From: Clostridiales bacterium
GTDB taxonomy: Bacteria > Bacillota > Clostridia > Peptostreptococcales > T1SED10-28
DNA: 17,139 bases
Reading direction: 5' to 3'
NCBI GenBank assembly: GCA_007134725.1
Contig: SLKF01000277.1
Location: 1 to 17,139 of the forward strand
Under the pieces are notes generated by a model. The model ran no database searches. It had not been told where the DNA came from and worked only from the letters and a program-made list of their open reading frames with translations. Shown here one piece after another: positions 6,557 to 15,156 of the stretch; the stretch's first letter is position 1, and every line of letters starts with the position of its first letter. The position numbers were made by a program, and so were the translations under genes.

Positions 6557-7423
6557 TTGAATCCATACATCGAATCCTTTGTGCGAAAAACCCACTTTCA
6601 TCACCATCGGTTATTTCATGGGCCCAAAAGAAAGATTATGACGTACCGGAAATGCATCAAAAAATTCAGCATTTATCGGGTCACAGGATTTGCCGTAGGA
6701 AAAATCAATCTGGGGACATTGGATATCCTGGAGCTTCAAGGAAAACTTCAAGGAGAGGAGGAAGCCCTTAATCGAAGGATCATTGACAAGAAAATCAGTA
6801 CGATCAATCAACGAAACGAGTTTCGCAGCTTCTTTTTCTTTCTTGAAAAGGAGTATCCGGAAGACTATCAACACCTGCCCTTTCTTAAAAGTGAACGGCC
6901 GGACTTTATCCTTCGATACAAAAGAGAAGTAATCGGAATCGAGATTACCGAAGCCATCGATGCCGGGGATGCCCAGCAGCGGGCTAAGATCTATGAAAGC
7001 GAATTAAGAGGGAGAAGAGCCGGTGAAATTGAAGAATATGTGGACCAAACCCCGGCGATGGCCGTCTTGGGAAAGTCAAAGATCTCCTTGGAAAAACTGA
7101 TCGCCAAGCGAATAAAAGACAAGAAAGAAAAATTTGAAGATTTTCAAAGGGTGGACCGGGAAATTCTTATTATTATTGCCAATCACCATGAATTCCAAGG
7201 TTCCGGGGATATTGAAACAATGCGAAAAGCCCTGGAAAGAAAAGGACCGTTAAAAGAAGCCCCGTTCTCTTTGGTGGTGATGAATCTGATCCATGGCATT
7301 TATGCACATTTTTATTGGGAAAGGGATAAGGTGATTCTCCATAAAAAACCCGGAAATCGGGAAATTATTCCTGAATTCTCAGAAGCAAGGATCAGACGGA
7401 AAAATCCCTGGAAAAAAACATAA
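6557..7423 (+). CDS. putative PD-(D/E)XK nuclease-like protein
   Basis: A 288-residue soluble protein that I do not recognise as a named family. Counting from the TTG at 6557, residues about 114-132 hold ERPDFIL, then a short strand pair ending in IGIEITEAI. An aspartate after proline followed about 13 residues later by E-x-T in a beta strand is the layout of a PD-(D/E)XK nuclease core with Thr in place of Lys. The rest is charged and helical, ending in a basic tail (RIRRKNPWKK). The start is uncertain. The AAGGGGG site directly abuts the ATG at 6551 (no spacer) but lies six bases before the in-frame TTG at 6557, so TTG is favoured. It is a single-gene unit with no partner methylase or toxin/antitoxin beside it. 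DNA cleavage is inference only. Confidence 0.6.
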   Translation: MNPYIESFVRKTHFHHHRLFHGPKRKIMTYRKCIKKFSIYRVTGFAVGKINLGTLDILELQGKLQGEEEALNRRIIDKKISTINQRNEFRSFFFFLEKEYPEDYQHLPFLKSERPDFILRYKREVIGIEITEAIDAGDAQQRAKIYESELRGRRAGEIEEYVDQTPAMAVLGKSKISLEKLIAKRIKDKKEKFEDFQRVDREILIIIANHHEFQGSGDIETMRKALERKGPLKEAPFSLVVMNLIHGIYAHFYWERDKVILHKKPGNREIIPEFSEARIRRKNPWKKT

Positions 7424-7483: not shown

Positions 7484-7550
7484 TATTAAATAGGAAAATT
7501 GTTGTAATATTTTCAAAACTTTCACAAATAAATTGTAAAGGAAGATGTAT

Positions 7551-9695
7551 ATGAAAATTGCCATTGTATATAATCGTGAAAGCCAGGCGGTAATCAACCT
7601 TTTTGGAATTCCCAACAAAGAAAAATACGGACTCAACACCATCTCCATGGTGGAATCCGCATTGGTTGAACACGGACATCAGGTGGAAACCTTTGAAGGG
7701 GATAAAAATATCATTCGAAAACTGGAAGAATTTATGCCGCGGGTGGTTTCCGGCGAAAGACCGGGACTGGTATTTAATCTAAGCTATGGAATACAGGGGA
7801 AAGGACGCTATATGCATATCCCGGGGATTTTGGAGATGCTGGGCATTCCCTATGTGGGATCGAATCCCGAAACCCATGCCATCGCCTTGGATAAGGTGAT
7901 TACAAAAATGATTTTACTGCAGCGGGGAATACCCACACCGAAATTTGCGGTTTTGGAAACCCCCAAGGACGAGCTTAAAGAGCCACTCACCTATCCCTTA
8001 ATTGTAAAACCCAAAAGTGAAGCGGTATCCTTCGGCCTGAAAATTGTTCGAAATCCTGAAGAATTAAAAGCCGGGGTGGAGAATATCTATAACGAGTTTA
8101 AGGCCCCTACCCTGGTAGAGGAGTACATTGAAGGTCGGGAGGGAAATGTAGGCCTTCTGGGGAATGATGAAGTGGAAGCATTACCGGCGGTGGAACTAAT
8201 CTTCGGAGAAGGAGAGAAAATCTTTACCTTTGAAGACAAAACCCATAAAAGCGGACGAGATGTGGGACGGGAATGTCCTGCAAACTTAACTCCGGAACTG
8301 GAGGAAAAGGTAAAAACCTTAGCGATTCGAACCTTTAAAGCCTTGGACTGTTATGACAGCGCCCGGGTGGATTTTCGAATTGATGAAGAAGGGAATCCCT
8401 ATGTGTTGGAAGTAAACTCCATGGCCAGCCTGGCGCCCACGGCCTCCTATGTCTATGCGGCGGAAAAAATGGGACTTCCTTATAATAAATTGGTGCAACG
8501 TTTAATCGAAGTTGCTTCTCAGCGGTATTTTGGGTCGATTCTGGAAGGTCCGGGAGACGGAGTTCAGGATTATGAAAATTCTGCTTTTTCGTATATAACC
8601 CAAAACCGTGACAATATGGAAAATGAACTTCGTTCCTGGACCAATATGTATACCGCCACCGATGATCCCGTAAGCAAGCAGGCCTTTATACGAAAGCTGG
8701 ATTATCGACTAAGAAAACTGAAGTTAAAAAAGAACGCTCATTATACCGATGGAAAGTCCTCCTGGTTTTGGACGGGGAAAAAGGGATTCCAAAACGGCAC
8801 CGTATTTGTAATTCCCGCAGATATTCCCGGGAACCGGGGAGCCTATCCGATCCCCTTTAGGAAAGAACCGGAAAACCTTTATGGAGAGGGAATTGCCTCC
8901 AGTCGTGCAGGGCTTATCTCTGTGTTAAAAGCCTTGGATGCTTTAAAACACCTGGGTCGGATGGATGATGCCAATTTCGGAGTATTTGTCTATGGGGATG
9001 AAGGTCTTGGGATGCGCTACAGTTCCGAAATCCTCAAGAAAATTGGGAAAAGAGCGAAAAACATGGTGGTTATGCACCCGGGCTATAATGAAAATAAAGT
9101 GGTCAACCAACGACGGGGAGCCATTAAACTGAAAGTGGTCATCGAAGGCAGTTCCTTACGGATCGGTAGTCAGAGTACCACTTCCAATGCCTTGGACTTT
9201 TTGTTGGATAAATCGGTAGATATCAAAAAAATCGATAAGGAAAATAAATACTTGACCGTGGCAATCCAGGACATTCAGTCCAATCGATACAGTATGCTGA
9301 TCCCCCATCGGGTCAGTGCCAATATGTTTATTACCTATATCGACGAAGAGCAGGCGAAAAAAGTAGAAGCACGGGTACGAAAGTTGTTTCAAACAAAGAA
9401 AAAAGGCATCAAAACCTACATTGAAAAACTGGAAGAGCGTCCACCCATGGTAAAAAGCAAAGATAGTGAAAGTCTAATAGCAGAGTTACGGGAAATCAGT
9501 GAAAAGTGGAAAATTCCCTTTGATGTGGAGTCTACGTTACTACCTTCCGCAGCCGGGGTAATCAGCAAAGAATGTGCTGTGGTTTGTGGAATGGCCCCAA
9601 GTTCGAAAAATCTGTATACACCGGAAGAATCCATCAGTAGAACGGAACTTGTGCAAAAGACTTTGCTGATCAGTCAGTTTTTACTGAAAGAATAA
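7551..9695 (+). CDS. ATP-grasp ligase fused to degenerate M20 peptidase domain
   Basis: A 714-residue two-domain cytoplasmic protein with no signal peptide. Residues about 1-330 resemble D-alanine-D-alanine ligases: VGSNPETHAIALDK, YPLIVKPKSEAVSFG, LVEEYIEGREGNVG, then the Mg2+ ligands D274 (ARVDFR) and E287/N289 (LEVNSMASLAP). This half looks active and would join a carboxylate to an amine with ATP. Residues about 400-714 match the M20 (carboxypeptidase G2/ArgE-type) fold from strand order and the C-terminal TPEESISRTEL segment. Its metal site is broken by eye: HxD reads PAD, the bridging Asp is Ser450, Glu-Glu reads Glu-Gly (GDEGLG), and the late His is missing. That half is probably structural or substrate-binding. 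The ATG at 7551 is preferred to 7545 because AAAGGAAG ends six bases before it. The substrate is unknown; the GGT-like and amidohydrolase genes follow. Confidence 0.85.
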   Translation: MKIAIVYNRESQAVINLFGIPNKEKYGLNTISMVESALVEHGHQVETFEGDKNIIRKLEEFMPRVVSGERPGLVFNLSYGIQGKGRYMHIPGILEMLGIPYVGSNPETHAIALDKVITKMILLQRGIPTPKFAVLETPKDELKEPLTYPLIVKPKSEAVSFGLKIVRNPEELKAGVENIYNEFKAPTLVEEYIEGREGNVGLLGNDEVEALPAVELIFGEGEKIFTFEDKTHKSGRDVGRECPANLTPELEEKVKTLAIRTFKALDCYDSARVDFRIDEEGNPYVLEVNSMASLAPTASYVYAAEKMGLPYNKLVQRLIEVASQRYFGSILEGPGDGVQDYENSAFSYITQNRDNMENELRSWTNMYTATDDPVSKQAFIRKLDYRLRKLKLKKNAHYTDGKSSWFWTGKKGFQNGTVFVIPADIPGNRGAYPIPFRKEPENLYGEGIASSRAGLISVLKALDALKHLGRMDDANFGVFVYGDEGLGMRYSSEILKKIGKRAKNMVVMHPGYNENKVVNQRRGAIKLKVVIEGSSLRIGSQSTTSNALDFLLDKSVDIKKIDKENKYLTVAIQDIQSNRYSMLIPHRVSANMFITYIDEEQAKKVEARVRKLFQTKKKGIKTYIEKLEERPPMVKSKDSESLIAELREISEKWKIPFDVESTLLPSAAGVISKECAVVCGMAPSSKNLYTPEESISRTELVQKTLLISQFLLKE

Positions 9696-9821: not shown

Positions 9822-11429
9822 ATGAAGACGAAAACTGCACCGGTGCATCGTAGTAAAAATGGGATGGTCTCTTCGGCTTCAAGTCAAGCTACTGAAATAG
9901 GAGCAGATATCTTAGCAAGGGGAGGAAATGCTTTTGATGCCGCCACGGCGGTATCCTACTGCTTAGGAGTTACGGAGCCTCAAGCATCGGGAATCGGAGG
10001 GCAGTCCATGGGGGTAGTATATCTTGCAAAAGAGAAGCGATACTTTGCATTGGACGGCTCCTCGATTGCTCCGTATCACTTTCAACCGAATGAGATGCCT
10101 AAAACGCCTTTGAAACTGGGATTAAAAGCCACTACCCTTCCTTCGACACCGGCGTTTTACGGATATCTTTTGGATAATTATGGGACGCTGTCTTTTAAAG
10201 AGTTGGTAGAGCCTGCAATTAATGTGGCAACAAAGGGATTTCCCGTAACCCCTTTAATCCATGCCTTAATTGATCGTAGTAAAGAAGACTTGAAAAATGA
10301 TCCCCAGGCGAATAAGAACTTCCTCAAGGAAGGTAAACCCTTAAGTGTGGGAGATATTCTTACCCAGCCGGAGATGGCCCGGTTGATGAAAAGAATGGCA
10401 GAGAAAGGCTGGCAGGATTTTTACACGGGAGAAATCGGTAAAGAAATCGTTGCGGATATGAGGGCTCGAGACGGGCTGCTCACTACCGAGGATCTAAGTC
10501 AAATCCCCGTGCCGATTGAGCGACATGTATTGGAAGGAAAGTACCGGAAATACGGAATTGTTACCTTCCCACCTCCGGGAGCCGGACGGGTGTTAATGCA
10601 GATATTAAACATTCTCGAAAACTTTACGGAAGAGGACATTGATTTGGACAGCCCCTACGGCAATCTGATTTTGGCCCTGGCTTTTCAACTTACCCTTCGG
10701 GATCGGAAACGAATGCCTCAAAATCCGGATATTTACTTTCAACAAGCCACAAGAAAAATGACCGATAAAAAATACAGTCGGGAAGTCACTGAAAATATCC
10801 GTATAATTATTGAAAAATATTCCGAGACCATCACCCATCTTCCACCGGAAACTTCGGGAGAAACCACCCATTTTTCCGTTGCGGACAGGGAAGGAAATAT
10901 CGTAGCGGTAACCCAATCCATTGAATTGGTATTCGGTGCCAAACGAACCGCCCAGGGACTGGGATTTTTCTACAATAACTACATGAGTGCCTTTGAATAC
11001 AAGGATCGCACCCATCCCTATTATCTTTTGCCGGGGAATAAACCCTGGAGCAGTGTGGCACCAACCATTGTCACCTCCAGGAAAAAACCCCTGCTGGTGC
11101 TTGGAAGTCCCGGGAGTGAACGGATCTCCACGGCCCTCAGCCAAGTGATCCTTAGATATCTTGATGGAAAACAGGATTTATCAAAAGCCATAGAAGAACC
11201 AAGATTTCATACTTCCGATCTGAAGAAAATGCAGTTGGAGAAAAAGCGGTTCTCCAAGGAAATTGAAAAAACTTTTGAAGAAACCGGCTTTGATATCCGG
11301 CGTCGAGGATCCTACAGTTTTTATCTTGGCTGTGTCCAGGGAATTGAGATGCCCAATAAAAGAAACGGATACCAATTCTATGGGGTGGCGGACCCCAGAA
11401 GAGACGGATCAGCCAAAGGGCCGGAGTAG
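9822..11429 (+). CDS. gamma-glutamyltranspeptidase-family Ntn hydrolase, atypical pocket
   Basis: A 535-residue member of the GGT family. Hallmarks are GGNAFDAATAVSYCLGVTEPQASGIGG near the N-terminus and TTHFSVADREGN at 348-359. T348 is the expected self-cleavage and nucleophile threonine. NNYMSAF (385-391), PWSSVAPTIV and GSPGSERI follow. Aligned by eye with E. coli Ggt, the Ser-Ser pair is kept, but residues that hold the gamma-glutamyl group differ: R114 is S80, N411 is E368, Q430 is Y387, D433 is A390 and one of the Gly-Gly pair is Ser432. Substrate is therefore probably not an ordinary gamma-glutamyl compound. There is no signal peptide, unlike classical secreted GGT, so it likely acts in the cytoplasm. 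GAGGGG precedes the ATG. It lies 126 bp after the ATP-grasp gene; I see no convincing terminator between them. Confidence 0.85.
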   Translation: MKTKTAPVHRSKNGMVSSASSQATEIGADILARGGNAFDAATAVSYCLGVTEPQASGIGGQSMGVVYLAKEKRYFALDGSSIAPYHFQPNEMPKTPLKLGLKATTLPSTPAFYGYLLDNYGTLSFKELVEPAINVATKGFPVTPLIHALIDRSKEDLKNDPQANKNFLKEGKPLSVGDILTQPEMARLMKRMAEKGWQDFYTGEIGKEIVADMRARDGLLTTEDLSQIPVPIERHVLEGKYRKYGIVTFPPPGAGRVLMQILNILENFTEEDIDLDSPYGNLILALAFQLTLRDRKRMPQNPDIYFQQATRKMTDKKYSREVTENIRIIIEKYSETITHLPPETSGETTHFSVADREGNIVAVTQSIELVFGAKRTAQGLGFFYNNYMSAFEYKDRTHPYYLLPGNKPWSSVAPTIVTSRKKPLLVLGSPGSERISTALSQVILRYLDGKQDLSKAIEEPRFHTSDLKKMQLEKKRFSKEIEKTFEETGFDIRRRGSYSFYLGCVQGIEMPNKRNGYQFYGVADPRRDGSAKGPE

Positions 11430-11509
11430 GGAGCTGACCCGAAGCAGGGACTTGACCCGAAGCAGGGACTTGACCCGAAGCAGGGACTTGACCCGAAGCA
11501 GGGACTTGA
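11427..11509. repeat. 18-bp tandem repeat between two genes
   Basis: The unit CAGGGACTTGACCCGAAG occurs three times perfectly at 11445-11462, 11463-11480 and 11481-11498. It is flanked by a diverged copy at 11427-11444 that contains the stop codon of the GGT-like gene, and by an 11-base partial copy at 11499-11509. The unit is a multiple of three and leaves frames open on both strands, but it follows the stop codon and precedes the binding site of the next gene, so it is probably untranslated. Confidence 0.95.
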
Positions 11510-11524
11510 AAGGGAGGGAAAGTC

Positions 11525-12313
11525 ATGAAAGACCATAAATTGCCGGTACTGATATCCATTCCCCATGGGGGAACCTTAGTACCCAAGGAAATGAGAGGGT
11601 TCTTTCAATTGGGGGAGCAGGAAGTTTTACGGGACGGGGATACCTGGACCCGAGAAATTTTCGACTTTCGAGAAGAAGTATTGGAATTGGTGGAAACCCC
11701 GGTGCCGAGAGTGGTCATCGATTTAAATCGGGGTAAAGAAGACCTGCCTCCGGATAATTTTGACGGAGTGGTAAAGACCAAATCCGTATTTCTGAATCCT
11801 GTATGGCAAAACCCCGAAGGTTTAGAAGAAGCACAGCGAAAGCATTTAATCGAAAAATACTATAATCCCTATTATAACAAGATTTTAAAAGCCTTGGAAA
11901 ATCCGGCAGTAAAACTGGGACTCGACTGTCACAGCATGCTACCGGAAAATCCTTTTGATGAAACCGCAGAAAAAAGACCCTTGTTTTGTATCAGCAACCG
12001 AGGGGGAAAAGCAGGGGAATTGGTAAAAGAACCCCTCAGTGCACCGAGGGAGTTATTGCTTTCCTTTAAAGAATCCCTGGAAAAGGAATTTGGAAAAGGA
12101 AGCGTTCAGTTGAACGATCCCTTTTCCGGAGGCTACATTACCCGGTACTTCGGAATGAAAAAGAATGTCCCCTGGATCCAGTTGGAGGTAAACCGGTCCT
12201 TGTATCTTCCTTCAGAAGGGCCCATCACCGAAAGTCCCGGGGAAGAACACCGGGAAAAGGTGAAGGAACTGAATCGTAGAATTTTTAAAGCAATTACGGG
12301 CCTAAAACTGTAG
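11525..12313 (+). CDS. N-formylglutamate amidohydrolase-family protein
   Basis: A 262-residue member of the N-formylglutamate amidohydrolase (HutG/FGase) family, zinc-dependent amide hydrolases related to carboxypeptidases. Visible motifs are ISIPHGGTLVP (10-20), VIDLNRGKEDLPPDNFDG (64-81), LDCHSMLP (133-140) and QLEVNRSLY (219-227). His14, Glu/Asp near 66-72 and His136 are candidate metal or catalytic residues. No histidine-degradation genes are nearby, so a role in histidine breakdown is not supported. The context instead suggests cleavage of an amide connected with the ATP-grasp and GGT-like proteins. GGGAGGG precedes the ATG. Its stop codon lies inside the loop of the terminator at 12297-12331, which ends this gene group. 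Confidence 0.88.
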   Translation: MKDHKLPVLISIPHGGTLVPKEMRGFFQLGEQEVLRDGDTWTREIFDFREEVLELVETPVPRVVIDLNRGKEDLPPDNFDGVVKTKSVFLNPVWQNPEGLEEAQRKHLIEKYYNPYYNKILKALENPAVKLGLDCHSMLPENPFDETAEKRPLFCISNRGGKAGELVKEPLSAPRELLLSFKESLEKEFGKGSVQLNDPFSGGYITRYFGMKKNVPWIQLEVNRSLYLPSEGPITESPGEEHREKVKELNRRIFKAITGLKL

Positions 12314-12463: not shown

Positions 12464-13021
12464 ATGACGGAACGGGAATTAATCATAAAAGCACAAGGGG
12501 GCCATAACCCGTCGTTAAATCAGCTGCTGCTGGATAATTATTCGATCCTGAAGGGCTATTTAATCAAGCTTACTCTCCAAAAAGAACTGGCGGAGGATCT
12601 TACCCAGGAGACCTTATTTAAAGCGGTTAAAAAAATACAGGACTATGAACCCCAAGGGAAGTTTAGCACCTGGTTAATTGTGATTGGAAAGAATCTTTAC
12701 TTTGATTATTTGCGGAAAAACAAAAGAGAAGGAAGCTTTGAAGAATATGAGTCGGGTTCCAGTAGGATCCACGAAAAAAAAGGCCCAAGTCTGGAAGATG
12801 AAGTTATGAATACGTTCGCCTTTGATAAAATGAAAGAAAGTTTAGCAACACTCAGTCAGGAAAAGCGCAGTGTATTTGTCTTAAAACATTATTACGGATA
12901 CTCTTATAAAGAAATCGCAGAAATCGAAGGGTGTCCCATAGGCACCGTACGTTCAAGGTTACATAAGAGCATTGAGGAGATTCGAAAAGCCATGGAAAAG
13001 GAGGGGTTGGATGGATTCTAA
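12464..13021 (+). CDS. ECF sigma factor, sigma-Y-like
   Basis: A 185-residue RNA polymerase sigma factor of the extracytoplasmic-function group with only regions 2 and 4. Region 2 spans about residues 10-90 (ELAEDLTQETLFKAVKKI, then FSTWLIVIGKNLYFDYLRK). Region 4 is about 122-176, with the helix-turn-helix GYSYKEIAEIEGCPIGTVRSRL. The binding site is GGGAGAGGG. It overlaps the start of the anti-sigma gene by 11 bases, the usual coupling of such pairs. Gene order and the nearby ABC operon resemble Bacillus subtilis sigY-yxlCDEFG, so a sigma-Y type role is likely. An ECF promoter directly upstream suggests autoregulation. The inducing signal is unknown. Confidence 0.93.
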   Translation: MTERELIIKAQGGHNPSLNQLLLDNYSILKGYLIKLTLQKELAEDLTQETLFKAVKKIQDYEPQGKFSTWLIVIGKNLYFDYLRKNKREGSFEEYESGSSRIHEKKGPSLEDEVMNTFAFDKMKESLATLSQEKRSVFVLKHYYGYSYKEIAEIEGCPIGTVRSRLHKSIEEIRKAMEKEGLDGF

Positions 13022-13466
13022 ATGCAGAGAAACCCAATATCGAATGTTGGATTGGTTTTACCAAGAAGAGGAAGAAAAAAAATGGGATTTCGATCATGTT
13101 CAACAGTGCAAGGAATGCCAAGGATATCATCAAAACCTGCTAAAAACAGAAAAGAACCTACCGAGAGAACCCATGGAGTTTCAAGCTTCCGATACTTTCA
13201 TCCGGGCCTTGGAGGATCAAGTTCGAAAAGAACGGATACGGGTTGAGGAAAAGAAGGAAAGGACAAGATTTTTAAAAGAGTTGGGAGCTTTTCCGGCGGT
13301 AGCCTTTTTCCTACTGAGCCTCATGGGCAGCCTCTTCTATTATGATGTGGGACCCTCCTTTATTCAGGTGCAGTTGGCGGGATTATTGGTGTTTCCCTTG
13401 ATCATTCCAATCCTGGGAGCCGTTGAAAAAAAACGACAGCAGGGACGTGATTATTATGGTTCGTGA
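13011..13466 (+). CDS. zinc-finger membrane anti-sigma factor
   Basis: A 151-residue protein with a cytoplasmic N-terminus and two membrane segments. H29-x3-C33-x2-C36 (HVQQCKEC) is the zf-HC2/ZAS motif typical of anti-sigma factors that bind ECF sigma factors. A charged coiled-coil-like stretch (about 62-90) links it to hydrophobic segments at about 92-111 and 117-138. The ATG at 13011 is chosen over the upstream ATG at 12972 because AAAGGAGGGG lies just before it and the zinc motif then starts near the N-terminus. It overlaps the sigma gene by 11 bp and the next gene by 11 bp. By position it corresponds to YxlC, the sigma-Y antagonist. Sequestration of the sigma factor is inferred from the family. 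Confidence 0.82.
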   Translation: MDSKCRETQYRMLDWFYQEEEEKKWDFDHVQQCKECQGYHQNLLKTEKNLPREPMEFQASDTFIRALEDQVRKERIRVEEKKERTRFLKELGAFPAVAFFLLSLMGSLFYYDVGPSFIQVQLAGLLVFPLIIPILGAVEKKRQQGRDYYGS

Positions 13467-13758
13467 TTTGACGGAAGTCCCCCTAATCCTTTGGGTATTA
13501 CTGGGAGCCGTGTTGCTTGTTCAAGGTTCCTGGATGTTCTATGACGCAAAGAAAAGAAAGGAATATCCCTGGATTTGGGGACTTTTCGGACTACTGAATA
13601 CCCCCACAAACTTACTGATTTATCTGGTGGTAACCCGAATTATCAAGAAGAAAAAAAGGTGTCCCCACTGTGGAGAAATGGTGGAAGAAAAAGTGACGTA
13701 CTGCAGTCATTGCGGCAGGGAAATGGATGAGATACTACAGGCAGAAAAAGAAAAATAA
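13456..13758 (+). CDS. small membrane protein with C-terminal zinc ribbon
   Basis: A 100-residue protein with two membrane segments (about 8-24 and 39-60) followed by a basic stretch and a zinc ribbon with C69-x2-C72 and C83-x2-C86 (CPHCGEMVEEKVTYCSHCG). The membrane part resembles the small PLDc_N-type helical hairpins. In the Bacillus sigY operon the third gene, yxlD, encodes a small membrane protein that helps hold the sigma factor inactive; this gene has the same position, though the zinc ribbon would be an addition. The ATG at 13456 (AGGGA ten bases upstream) is favoured over 13423. It overlaps the anti-sigma gene by 11 bases. Function is inferred from context only. Confidence 0.78.
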   Translation: MVRDLTEVPLILWVLLGAVLLVQGSWMFYDAKKRKEYPWIWGLFGLLNTPTNLLIYLVVTRIIKKKKRCPHCGEMVEEKVTYCSHCGREMDEILQAEKEK

Positions 13759-13764
13759 AAAAAT

Positions 13765-13802
13765 ATACCCATTTAATCAATGGCAATCGATTAAATGGGT
13801 AT
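13765..13802 (-). terminator. hairpin terminator, stronger on the minus strand
   Basis: A perfect 14-bp stem (ATACCCATTTAATC with its complement) with a 10-base loop. On the minus strand it is followed by a long T-rich run (from 13764 down to about 13752). On the plus strand the following bases are poor in T. It is the first convincing terminator for the minus-strand operon, which would give that mRNA a tail of about 360 nt running antisense to the selenoprotein gene. It may also stop the sigma operon. Confidence 0.7.
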
Positions 13803-13898
13803 TAATGTTTGTATAGAGGGATTTAAGACTTTTTAGACTATTCTTTTAGAAGGTATGTAAAAGATCCCCCCAAAGCACTTAAGAAGAAGGTGAGCCCG

Positions 13899-14189
13899 AT
13901 GAAAATTGAAATGACTGATAAAGCCAAGGAATACGCCTTAAAAATCCATAAACCCGTCATCATTCGATACGAAAAAAAAGGATGATGTCACAGTGGCTTT
14001 CGCTATGTCCCGGTTATTGGTTTTAGCGACGGCAAAGATAGTCTGGAAGACTATCAAAAGTATGACATTCAGGGAATTCCTCTCTATATCAGCAAGAAAG
14101 CGGAAGCGGAGGATGAAATAATCACTATTGATCTTGCTCAGTTATTTAAATGGAAACAGCTTACCGTGGAAGGGTTGAAGGTGGTATAA
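13899..14189 (+). CDS. HesB-like / CC/Se-motif selenoprotein (in-frame TGA = Sec29)
   Basis: A 96-residue protein if TGA at 13983-13985 is read as selenocysteine. The frame starts at ATG 13899 with AGGTGA five bases upstream, reads MKIEMTDKAKEYALKIHKPV to the GGA-TGA-TGT triplets (G28-Sec29-Cys30), and stays open for 67 more codons (HSGFRYVPVIGFSDGK..., ending KQLTVEGLKVV) to TAA at 14187. The TDKAKEY opening, the redox Sec-Cys pair in mid-protein and the GIPLYISKKAE...ITIDL ending match my recollection of the small HesB/IscA-like selenoproteins of Clostridia, annotated as CC/Se-motif (seleno)proteins. A hairpin starts five bases after the TGA. Molecular function is unknown; an iron-sulfur or thiol-redox role is inference. 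The alternative is a pseudogene with a point stop. The gene overlaps the desulfhydrase gene tail to tail by 29 bp. Confidence 0.82.
13983..14011 (+). promoter_or_regulatory. Sec codon and candidate bacterial SECIS hairpin
   Basis: UGA 13983-13985, a four-base gap, then ACA-G-UGGC (13990-13997) pairing with GCUA-UGU (14002-14008). One G is bulged, one pair is G-U, and the apical loop is UUUC (13998-14001). Bacterial SECIS elements are short hairpins placed immediately 3' of the UGA within the coding region, and this fits in position and size. The primary sequence is not diagnostic. Confidence 0.55.
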
Positions 14190-15156
14190 GCCCGAAGACC
14201 CCGCCGGTATGAATGAAAAGGATCCTTTGATCGTTACGGAAGGTTCCTTTTTTGATTTCCTCCACCAAACCATAGAGGGCTTTTCCTGTATAAACGGGAT
14301 CCAAGAGGATTCCCTCAGATCTTGCCATGTGTTGCAAAAAATCCCACTCTACTGCCCGGCTTTTCCCATAACCTTCTCCCACATAACCGTCAATAACCCG
14401 GATATTCTTTGAAACAAAAAGAGGATTGTCGGCATTCAACGTACTGGGGTTCAGATAAGTTATGGCTTCCTTAAGCAGTAAAGAGACCCGCTTCTGAAAG
14501 GTTGGGGCATCGGCGGCGATATTAATGCCAATAATTTCTCCCGGGTACTGGTAAAGGGCTTTTCCTAAAATCAGCCCCCCTAAAGTGGATCCGGAGCCCG
14601 TTGCCACAACCACCGCATCAAAGGAAAAGCCTAAAGACTTTTCCTGTTCCTGAATTTCTTTGATCACATCACTGTATCCGAAACAGCCGAGACCGTTAGA
14701 AGCCCCTTCGGGAATGATGTAGGGGGTTTTCCCTTGACCTTTTAATTGATCGCTCAGGGTCTCGAGAATTTCTCCCCGGCGGTGCTGATAATCGGATTCG
14801 CTAATCCGCTGGATCCTTGCACCGAAAAGATGATCCAGCAAATAATTTCCGATCATCTCCGGTTCCTGATTTTCCTTTAACACCAGATACACGGGAAGCC
14901 CGAGTTTTGCCCCGAGGGCTGCGGTAGCCCGGCAGTGGTTGGACTGGATGGCTCCGCAGGTAATCAGGGCGTCGGCCCCCTGCTCCAGGGCTTCCTCCAT
15001 TAAGTATTCCAATTTACGGATTTTATTTCCGGATAGTTCAATACCGGTCTGGTCGTCTCTTTTAATATAGATTTCCGGACCCTTTAAGGATGCGCTTAAT
15101 CTCTGCAATTTTTCAATTTTCGTCGGTAACGTGGCGTAAGATCTCTTGGTTAGCAT
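14161..15156 (-). CDS. D-cysteine desulfhydrase / ACC deaminase family PLP enzyme
   Basis: A 331-residue fold-type II pyridoxal-phosphate enzyme. K45 in LSGNKIRKLE is the expected Schiff-base lysine. CGAIQSNHCRATAA (68-80) is the conserved Asn-containing segment, and ATGSGSTLGG (186-195) binds the cofactor phosphate. The family splits D-cysteine to pyruvate, ammonia and sulfide, or deaminates 1-aminocyclopropane carboxylate; the desulfhydrase role is more common in such bacteria, but the substrate is not provable here. AAGGAGG precedes the ATG. It is the last gene of the minus-strand ABC operon, 23 bp behind the permease. Its 3' end overlaps the selenoprotein gene by 29 bp, with no terminator between, so its transcript probably continues to the hairpin at 13765-13802. 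Confidence 0.88.
   Translation of the reverse strand: MLTKRSYATLPTKIEKLQRLSASLKGPEIYIKRDDQTGIELSGNKIRKLEYLMEEALEQGADALITCGAIQSNHCRATAALGAKLGLPVYLVLKENQEPEMIGNYLLDHLFGARIQRISESDYQHRRGEILETLSDQLKGQGKTPYIIPEGASNGLGCFGYSDVIKEIQEQEKSLGFSFDAVVVATGSGSTLGGLILGKALYQYPGEIIGINIAADAPTFQKRVSLLLKEAITYLNPSTLNADNPLFVSKNIRVIDGYVGEGYGKSRAVEWDFLQHMARSEGILLDPVYTGKALYGLVEEIKKGTFRNDQRILFIHTGGVFGLIPPSTLPR
14217..14253 (+). terminator. possible terminator of the selenoprotein gene
   Basis: AAAGGATCC (14217-14225) pairs with GGTTCCTTT (14242-14250), eight pairs around one U-U mismatch, with a 16-base loop and six T at 14248-14253. It begins 27 bases past the selenoprotein stop and lies within the opposite-strand desulfhydrase coding region. 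Confidence 0.45.

Follow-up and report, generated by a model that had tools for sequence, protein, structure and literature searches.

A predicted selenoprotein of the CC/Se motif family in a Clostridiales bacterium belongs to a subclade with relatives beside arsenic resistance genes

RESULTS

The window analyzed here is a 17,139-nucleotide stretch of DNA from a Clostridiales bacterium (GenBank assembly GCA_007134725.1, contig SLKF01000277.1). At positions 13899 to 14189 of its forward strand lies a frame of 96 residues plus a TAA stop in which the single TGA, at codon 29 (positions 13983 to 13985), is directly followed by TGT (Cys30, positions 13986 to 13988), the sole Cys codon in the frame. 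We predict with high confidence that this frame is a selenoprotein gene in which the TGA encodes Sec29, with Cys30 as its partner; the prediction draws on a family match (NF041239, Gly-Sec-Cys-His subclade), on selection, and on a tree. The ATG is preceded by a ribosome binding site composed of AAGGTGAG (positions 13887 to 13894) and a 4-base spacer, together occupying positions 13887 to 13898. The same motif stands at equal spacing in four congeners (L009, L011, L018, and L023) and is absent at that spacing before the start of L015, from the sister genus. An initial annotation of this DNA had described one frame broken only by TGA at codon 29, a ribosome binding site before it, and a TGT that creates a Sec-Cys pair, all of which we confirm.

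That annotation had also considered the gene to be missed by standard gene calling. Indeed, a list of standard-code open reading frames (ORFs) of at least 60 residues holds none in this frame, and two database entries (P0006 and P0007) begin 3′ of the TGA, where residue 39 stands; P0006 is identical to the congener locus L009 in its downstream part. Gene callers thus do truncate this gene. A genetic code in which TGA means Trp was considered and rejected: 4 of the 18 ORFs taken as genes in the window end with TGA, and together these ORFs hold 34 TGG codons, so TGA serves as a normal stop elsewhere in the window.

In all six genomes of the window's bacterial family, the selenoprotein gene follows a set composed of an ECF sigma factor gene, an unknown gene, and a zinc-ribbon-like gene, represented in the window at positions 12464 to 13758 (neighbors were clustered across the six genomes, and functional names come from the window only). 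Its 3′ end is overlapped, tail to tail, by a D-cysteine-desulfhydrase-family gene (positions 14161 to 15156, reverse strand; TIGR01275, 316.5 bits, cutoff 289.4), a homolog of which is likewise present in 6/6 genomes of the family.

Within the upstream set, the sigma factor is near SigY (193.9 bits, cutoff 194), the second gene is an unmatched ORF of 164 residues, and the third encodes a small protein with a zinc-ribbon-like end. A perfect 14-base inverted repeat (positions 13765 to 13778 and 13789 to 13802) separates this set from the selenoprotein gene; it has no strong T-run and is a possible terminator. Farther upstream, positions 7545 to 9695 (forward strand) encode a 716-residue protein of unusual fused architecture: its N-terminal part is D-Ala-D-Ala-ligase-like, and its residues 442 to 663 match a hydrolase model (NF005602) at 70 bits, below the cutoff of 357. 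Near the end of a gamma-glutamyltransferase-family gene, positions 11263 to 11586 contain brief repeated peptide units (TRSRDL and GQVPAS) in ORFs of the two strands, in what looks like a small tandem repeat. Judging from their isolate names, the congeners probably come from soda-lake sediments.

With Cys written for Sec, the read-through protein matches NF041239 over residues 1 to 93 (E = 3.6e-17, 62.2 bits, cutoff 40), and the gene scored 60.6 bits in the genome search. NF041239 is the NCBIfam "CC/Se motif family (seleno)protein" (Moor_selen_rel), curated before this analysis; the match spans the whole length above the curated cutoff, and the Cys/Sec dyad of the family is present as Sec29-Cys30. 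Column 30 shows Cys without exception in a 30-sequence alignment of the family (alignment A2), where Cys also stands for Sec. A 2026 review (PMC13188914) lists the family as a "hypothetical protein predicted in Moorella thermoacetica," in an entry that gives no function and the motif CxxU; here, the arrangement is instead Sec-Cys (UC), and the clade has Sec in every row.

The initial annotation had called the protein HesB-like, and of this description a remote relationship remains. The protein does not match the HesB-like selenoprotein model TIGR01911 at E values up to 1, and its score against PF01521 (Fe-S_biosyn, IscA/HesB) is 22.2 bits (E = 1.7e-4), less than the gathering score of 26.3; 14 of the 30 members of alignment A2 match PF01521 at E values up to 0.1. 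A profile comparison of this alignment with nine HesB-like selenoproteins of these genomes gave a probability of 96.7% (E = 3.4e-10), and the subclade alone gave 94.9%. Read from the profile alignment, Sec29 falls in the HesB-like Sec column. The protein shares this column with TIGR01911 proteins but lacks their GUGGP motif and C-terminal Cys. A-type carriers (IscA/HesB) carry a C-terminal Cys-x-Cys, which is absent here because the frame has no Cys after residue 30. By profile comparison, the selenoprotein is thus remotely HesB-like and not a member of TIGR01911. The precomputed label PF28096.1 is attached to the homologs found (6/6 in one search and 26/26 in another) and was not among the matches to our protein in the Pfam copy searched. 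A sequence search for a relative of solved structure found none, tblastn found no relative among 72,556 plasmid records at E values up to 0.001, and PADLOC returned no match.

To place the gene among its homologs, we collected NF041239 matches from related genomes; the family occurs in 86 of 198 relatives at E values up to 0.001 and exceeds its cutoff in 61 of 198. The over-cutoff matches numbered 98: 96 were retrieved, the window's own was taken from its sequence, and a partial one (G130:C1:3320300) was discarded; with the named locus L074 added and below-cutoff matches left out, 98 rows were analyzed (L074, L076 to L171, and the window). The initial annotation had proposed looking for homologs with Cys or Sec at residue 29; of the 98 rows, 67 have a dyad TGA, and the other 31 have Cys without TGA. 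A simple script rule assigned the dyad arrangements as UC in 27 rows, CU in 26, CC in 21, single C in 10, U alone in 5, CxxU in 5, and UxC in 4. The tree, which is weak because it rests on 97 columns, requires at least 12 Sec/Cys changes and 21 changes of arrangement; Sec stands at either position of the vicinal dyad, and Cys takes its place in other rows.

The window's gene belongs to a subclade with the motif Gly-Sec-Cys-His/Arg, whose 17 rows form one clade (support 100/97) and have TGA at that codon, in the UC arrangement, in 17/17 cases. No Cys form of the subclade was found. When 393 genomes of the order were searched with a profile at E values up to 1e-14, 16 subclade matches in 15 genomes were obtained, all with TGA. 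Three other matches lack TGA; they belong to a Gly-Gly-Cys-Cys sister group and are not Cys variants of the subclade itself. The 17th row, L074, was identified in a separate search. No further member of the subclade was found in 391 genomes of the class.

The sequence that follows the TGA behaves as coding sequence. Pairwise comparison of five members from the window's bacterial family gave dN/dS values of 0.076 to 0.244 after the TGA (9 of 10 pairs computable) and 0.023 to 0.319 before it (6 of 10 pairs). The frame 3′ of the TGA is under purifying selection, and homologs extend over its full length rather than ending at codon 28; the coding character that the initial annotation had noted there is thus borne out. 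Synonymous-codon identity is 0.86 at codons 30 to 36, 0.61 upstream, and 0.76 at codons 47 to 96, such that it is only mildly raised just after the TGA. Four database proteins (P0002 to P0005) show Trp at residue 29. P0003 equals the L011 protein except at the start residue and the Trp/TGA position, and P0005 is identical to residues 1 to 83 of L015 apart from Trp/TGA; because both match TGA-bearing DNA, their Trp is a misread TGA rather than an unrelated sense codon. All four entries look like such misreadings, with the DNA comparison covering P0003 and P0005.

We next searched for a selenocysteine insertion sequence (SECIS). The canonical bacterial rule asks for G in the first two loop positions, a spacing of 16 to 37 nucleotides (nt), and a stem of at least 4 bp; our strict rule is near that quoted in the SECIS passage of the review (PMC13188914), with loops of up to 14 nt instead of 9. 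Under this rule, a value of −4 kcal/mol or less is found for 34 of the 50 Sec rows that lie outside the subclade (mean −5.32 versus −1.82 kcal/mol for synonymous-codon controls) and for 5 of 31 Cys rows (mean −1.18 versus −1.17 kcal/mol). The Sec rows outside the subclade therefore show a classical bacterial SECIS signal. The window gene has no qualifying hairpin, and the rule gives the subclade no support because only 1 of its 17 rows reaches −4 kcal/mol (mean −1.51 versus −1.54 kcal/mol). A relaxed rule gave means of −5.05 versus −3.32 for the subclade (1/17 at a P value of 0.05 or less), −6.28 versus −3.25 for the other Sec rows (14/50), and −2.98 versus −2.70 for the Cys rows (2/31). When folding 3′ of the TGA was compared with that of synonymous codons, mean z values were −1.51 for the subclade, −1.33 for the other Sec rows, and −0.12 for the Cys rows, so that folding is elevated in both groups of Sec rows but not in the Cys rows; the window gene itself has a z of −1.19.

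A candidate SECIS-like hairpin spans positions 13996 to 14033 of the forward strand; it is the one hairpin that RNAalifold gives for the window's family, with a consensus of −11.4 kcal/mol from six sequences. Counted in columns from the TGA, it pairs 14 to 16 with 49 to 51, 18 to 23 with 42 to 47, and 27 and 28 with 37 and 38, and its loop starts 25 nt after the TGA. Across its eight core pairs, 93.8% of cells pair, versus 21 to 48% with a slid partner; this value is attained by 106 of 500 shuffles and is not significant. Folded as a single sequence, the window stretch does no better than its shuffled versions (z of about 0), and RNAalifold on all 17 subclade rows found no common hairpin downstream of column 15. 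For nine sequences outside the window's family, a two-helix hairpin pairs in 82.5% of cells (24 to 53% with a slid partner), a value reached by 78 of 500 shuffles. According to the same review, some bacterial SECIS elements do not fit the canonical model, and failure of the canonical rule is therefore not decisive. We regard this modeled hairpin as a plausible candidate for a noncanonical SECIS element in the window gene.

The initial annotation had called for a search of the same genome for the selenocysteine machinery. This search succeeded in part: selD is present, and selA, selB, and tRNA-Sec were not found in the window's genome (G000), an 80%-complete assembly. Of the six genomes of the bacterial family, G001, G002, G004, and G005 carry selA, selB, and tRNA-Sec over cutoffs in one cluster, and these four of the five relatives have selD as well. 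The two genomes without selA, selB, and tRNA-Sec are G000 and G003 (63% complete); G005, also 80% complete, has them, and three near-complete congeners carry the whole machinery. Contig C157 of G000 follows the sel region of G001 (L057) to base 7422, with 43 bases left, and tRNA-Sec begins at base 7642, so that the contig ends about 180 bases before the sel cluster. We therefore rejected the missing machinery as a refutation. In all six genomes, G000 included, selD has one in-frame TGA that falls in a UAGK motif; the SelD entry of the review (PMC13188914) gives the motif as UxxK. A second TGA gene of G000 is HesB-like (C245:4415-4651, L225) with the motif VGUGGP and scores below the TIGR01911 cutoff; HesB-like genes with one TGA, all below that cutoff, occur in 13 of 13 genomes searched. 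The window's lineage decodes selenocysteine.

Members of the subclade are frequently encoded beside arsenic (ars) genes. Outside the window's bacterial family, 9 of the 11 subclade loci have at least one of acr3, arsC, arsD, and arsA within 6 kb. The count is 0 for the 81 other members of NF041239, of which 58 have about 6 kb on both sides and the rest are cut by contig ends. The queries were five proteins of L082, a search that would miss distant ars genes, other efflux types, and arsM. The only ArsR-like match outside the subclade is 5.5 kb away, at L145. Fisher's test gives 6e-11, or 1.5e-8 when the six loci of the window's family, none of which is linked, are counted; because relatives are not independent, these values are indicative only and are not probabilities.

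The order arsR-Sec gene-arsC-acr3-arsD-arsA is found at L079, L082 (the same place as L075, Alkaliphilus transvaalensis), L094, and L096. The other arrangements are arsR-Sec gene-acr3 (L089 and L095), arsR-Sec gene-acr3-arsC (L074, Anaeromonas frigoriresistens), Sec gene-arsR-acr3-arsD-arsA (L122), and Sec gene-arsC (L110), which makes five gene orders, from several genera, that preserve the adjacency. At L103, an ArsR/SmtB gene alone is found, on a contig that ends only 974 bases past the start of the selenoprotein gene, and none of the queried ars genes is near L116 (the same as L073, Anoxynatronum buryatiense). The neighbors at L082 were identified above cutoffs as ArsR/SmtB, ACR3, and ArsD, and ArsA was identified at the GET3/ArsA subfamily level; the arsenate reductase is below equivalog cutoffs (113.1 versus 157.6 for the best). 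Family membership is also confirmed for the ACR3 of L074 and for the regulators of L095, L103, and L122, and the remaining assignments rest on tblastn with the L082 proteins.

On the tree, the window's family groups with the ars-linked loci L089 and L095 (support 97/81), and two linkage changes suffice by parsimony; from this position, the simplest reading is that the window's family lost an ars linkage. In G000, G001, G002, and G004, arsR stands beside acr3 elsewhere in the genome, without the selenoprotein gene between them (the acr3 of G004 is a contig-end fragment), and acr3 was not found in G003 and G005. Three Cys relatives (L174 to L176) have no recognizable ars neighbors in loci of about 3 kb, with ORFs judged by eye.

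ArsD, an arsenite metallochaperone, offers a close comparison, being a small ars operon protein with a vicinal soft-ligand pair (Cys-Cys in the ArsD of L082). The Cys-Cys pair of ArsD binds As(III). The protein studied here differs in having Sec in place of one Cys and does not match the ArsD model NF033727, NF041239 being the only model reported. arsD and the selenoprotein gene occur together at five subclade loci (L079, L082, L094, L096, and L122), which argues that the selenoprotein is not simply a replacement for ArsD.

DISCUSSION

Together, these results support the claim of the initial annotation that the gene encodes a true selenoprotein: NF041239 matches across the TGA, the subclade retains TGA throughout, the sequence beyond it is constrained, and selD has its UAGK motif. 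The reading in which there is no selenoprotein, and the frame is a decayed gene, a gene for a 28-residue peptide, a sequencing error, or one whose TGA is read as Trp, appears very unlikely to us. It could appeal to the absence of selA, selB, and tRNA-Sec from this assembly, to the Trp entries, and to the lack of a canonical SECIS. Against it stand the conservation of TGA across genera, purifying selection after the TGA, the loss of the sel cluster at a contig end, the TGA in selD, the use of TGA as a stop elsewhere in the window, and the two of four Trp entries that match TGA-bearing DNA.

The function was given as unknown in the initial annotation, and the protein does remain uncharacterized; the ars linkage of its relatives allows the question to be narrowed. 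A Sec-Cys pair beside an invariant Gly, together with this linkage, suggests binding or hand-over of As(III). We tentatively favor, at a little less than an even chance, a role in which the pair binds arsenite or a similar metalloid. Ribosomes almost certainly decode UGA at codon 29 as selenocysteine, producing a Sec29-Cys30 pair that, in a remote HesB/A-type-carrier-like domain, takes the place that Sec has in HesB-like selenoproteins. This selenol-thiol pair could bind trivalent arsenic or a like soft metalloid, and the selenoprotein might work beside ArsR, ACR3, and ArsD as a scavenger or chaperone; in the window's lineage, a locus without ars linkage would retain this activity. With no other Cys in the protein, a third ligand could be supplied only by His31 (Arg in 3/17 rows), by a second subunit, or by a small thiol.

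A redox-partner or Fe-S role is nearly as likely. Here too the selenoprotein is genuine, and its Sec-Cys pair would form a general redox or Fe-S-related center similar to that of A-type carriers, with ars linkage reflecting one use, for example, as a reductant of arsenate reductase, and the window copy acting in sulfur or redox metabolism. The remote HesB/PF01521 relationship is consistent with such a center, as are the absence of queried ars genes near the rest of NF041239 and the D-cysteine-desulfhydrase-family gene found tail to tail in every genome of the window's family; according to the review (PMC13188914), most uncharacterized selenoproteins are expected to have redox functions. The missing C-terminal Cys-x-Cys of A-type carriers speaks against it, and L089, L095, and L122 have acr3 but no arsC match within 6 kb, so an ArsC partner alone does not explain the linkage. 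It is improbable, in our view, that the selenoprotein has an unrelated function and that its ars linkage is the hitchhiking of a block inherited once, which would leave the window gene unexplained by it. A single event may account for the linkage, given that the subclade forms one clade; the window's family is not linked, and the short loci of the Cys relatives L174 to L176 show no recognizable ars neighbors. The persistence of adjacency through five ars gene orders in several genera speaks against hitchhiking.

Within the arsenite-binding reading, a more specific picture is possible, and we offer it with some reserve. The protein may be a dedicated arsenic selenoprotein, small and HesB-like, in which an adjacent selenol and thiol form the arsenite ligand pair; it would be ancestral in the Clostridial operon type arsR-Sec gene-arsC-acr3-arsD-arsA, would use a noncanonical SECIS, and would belong to a family in which Sec has alternated between the dyad positions.

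NF041239 is already known as a selenoprotein family, and we did not find the ars linkage of this subclade in print. Our literature search found NF041239 in PMC13188914 alone, a review whose arsenic passages do not mention the family, and found no title on linkage between a selenoprotein and an ars operon. An ars-linked and, so far, always-Sec subclade gives NF041239 a testable role, and the linkage suggests use of a selenol-thiol pair for metalloid handling. The natural Sec-Cys, Cys-Sec, and Cys-Cys swaps at one site should also be useful for asking why a protein uses selenium.

A separate observation concerns genome G130, in which an arsenite methyltransferase gene (NF008823, above cutoff) itself has a Sec-type TGA; the distance between the end of this gene and the Cys-Cys sister form of the family (L076) is about 1.2 kb.
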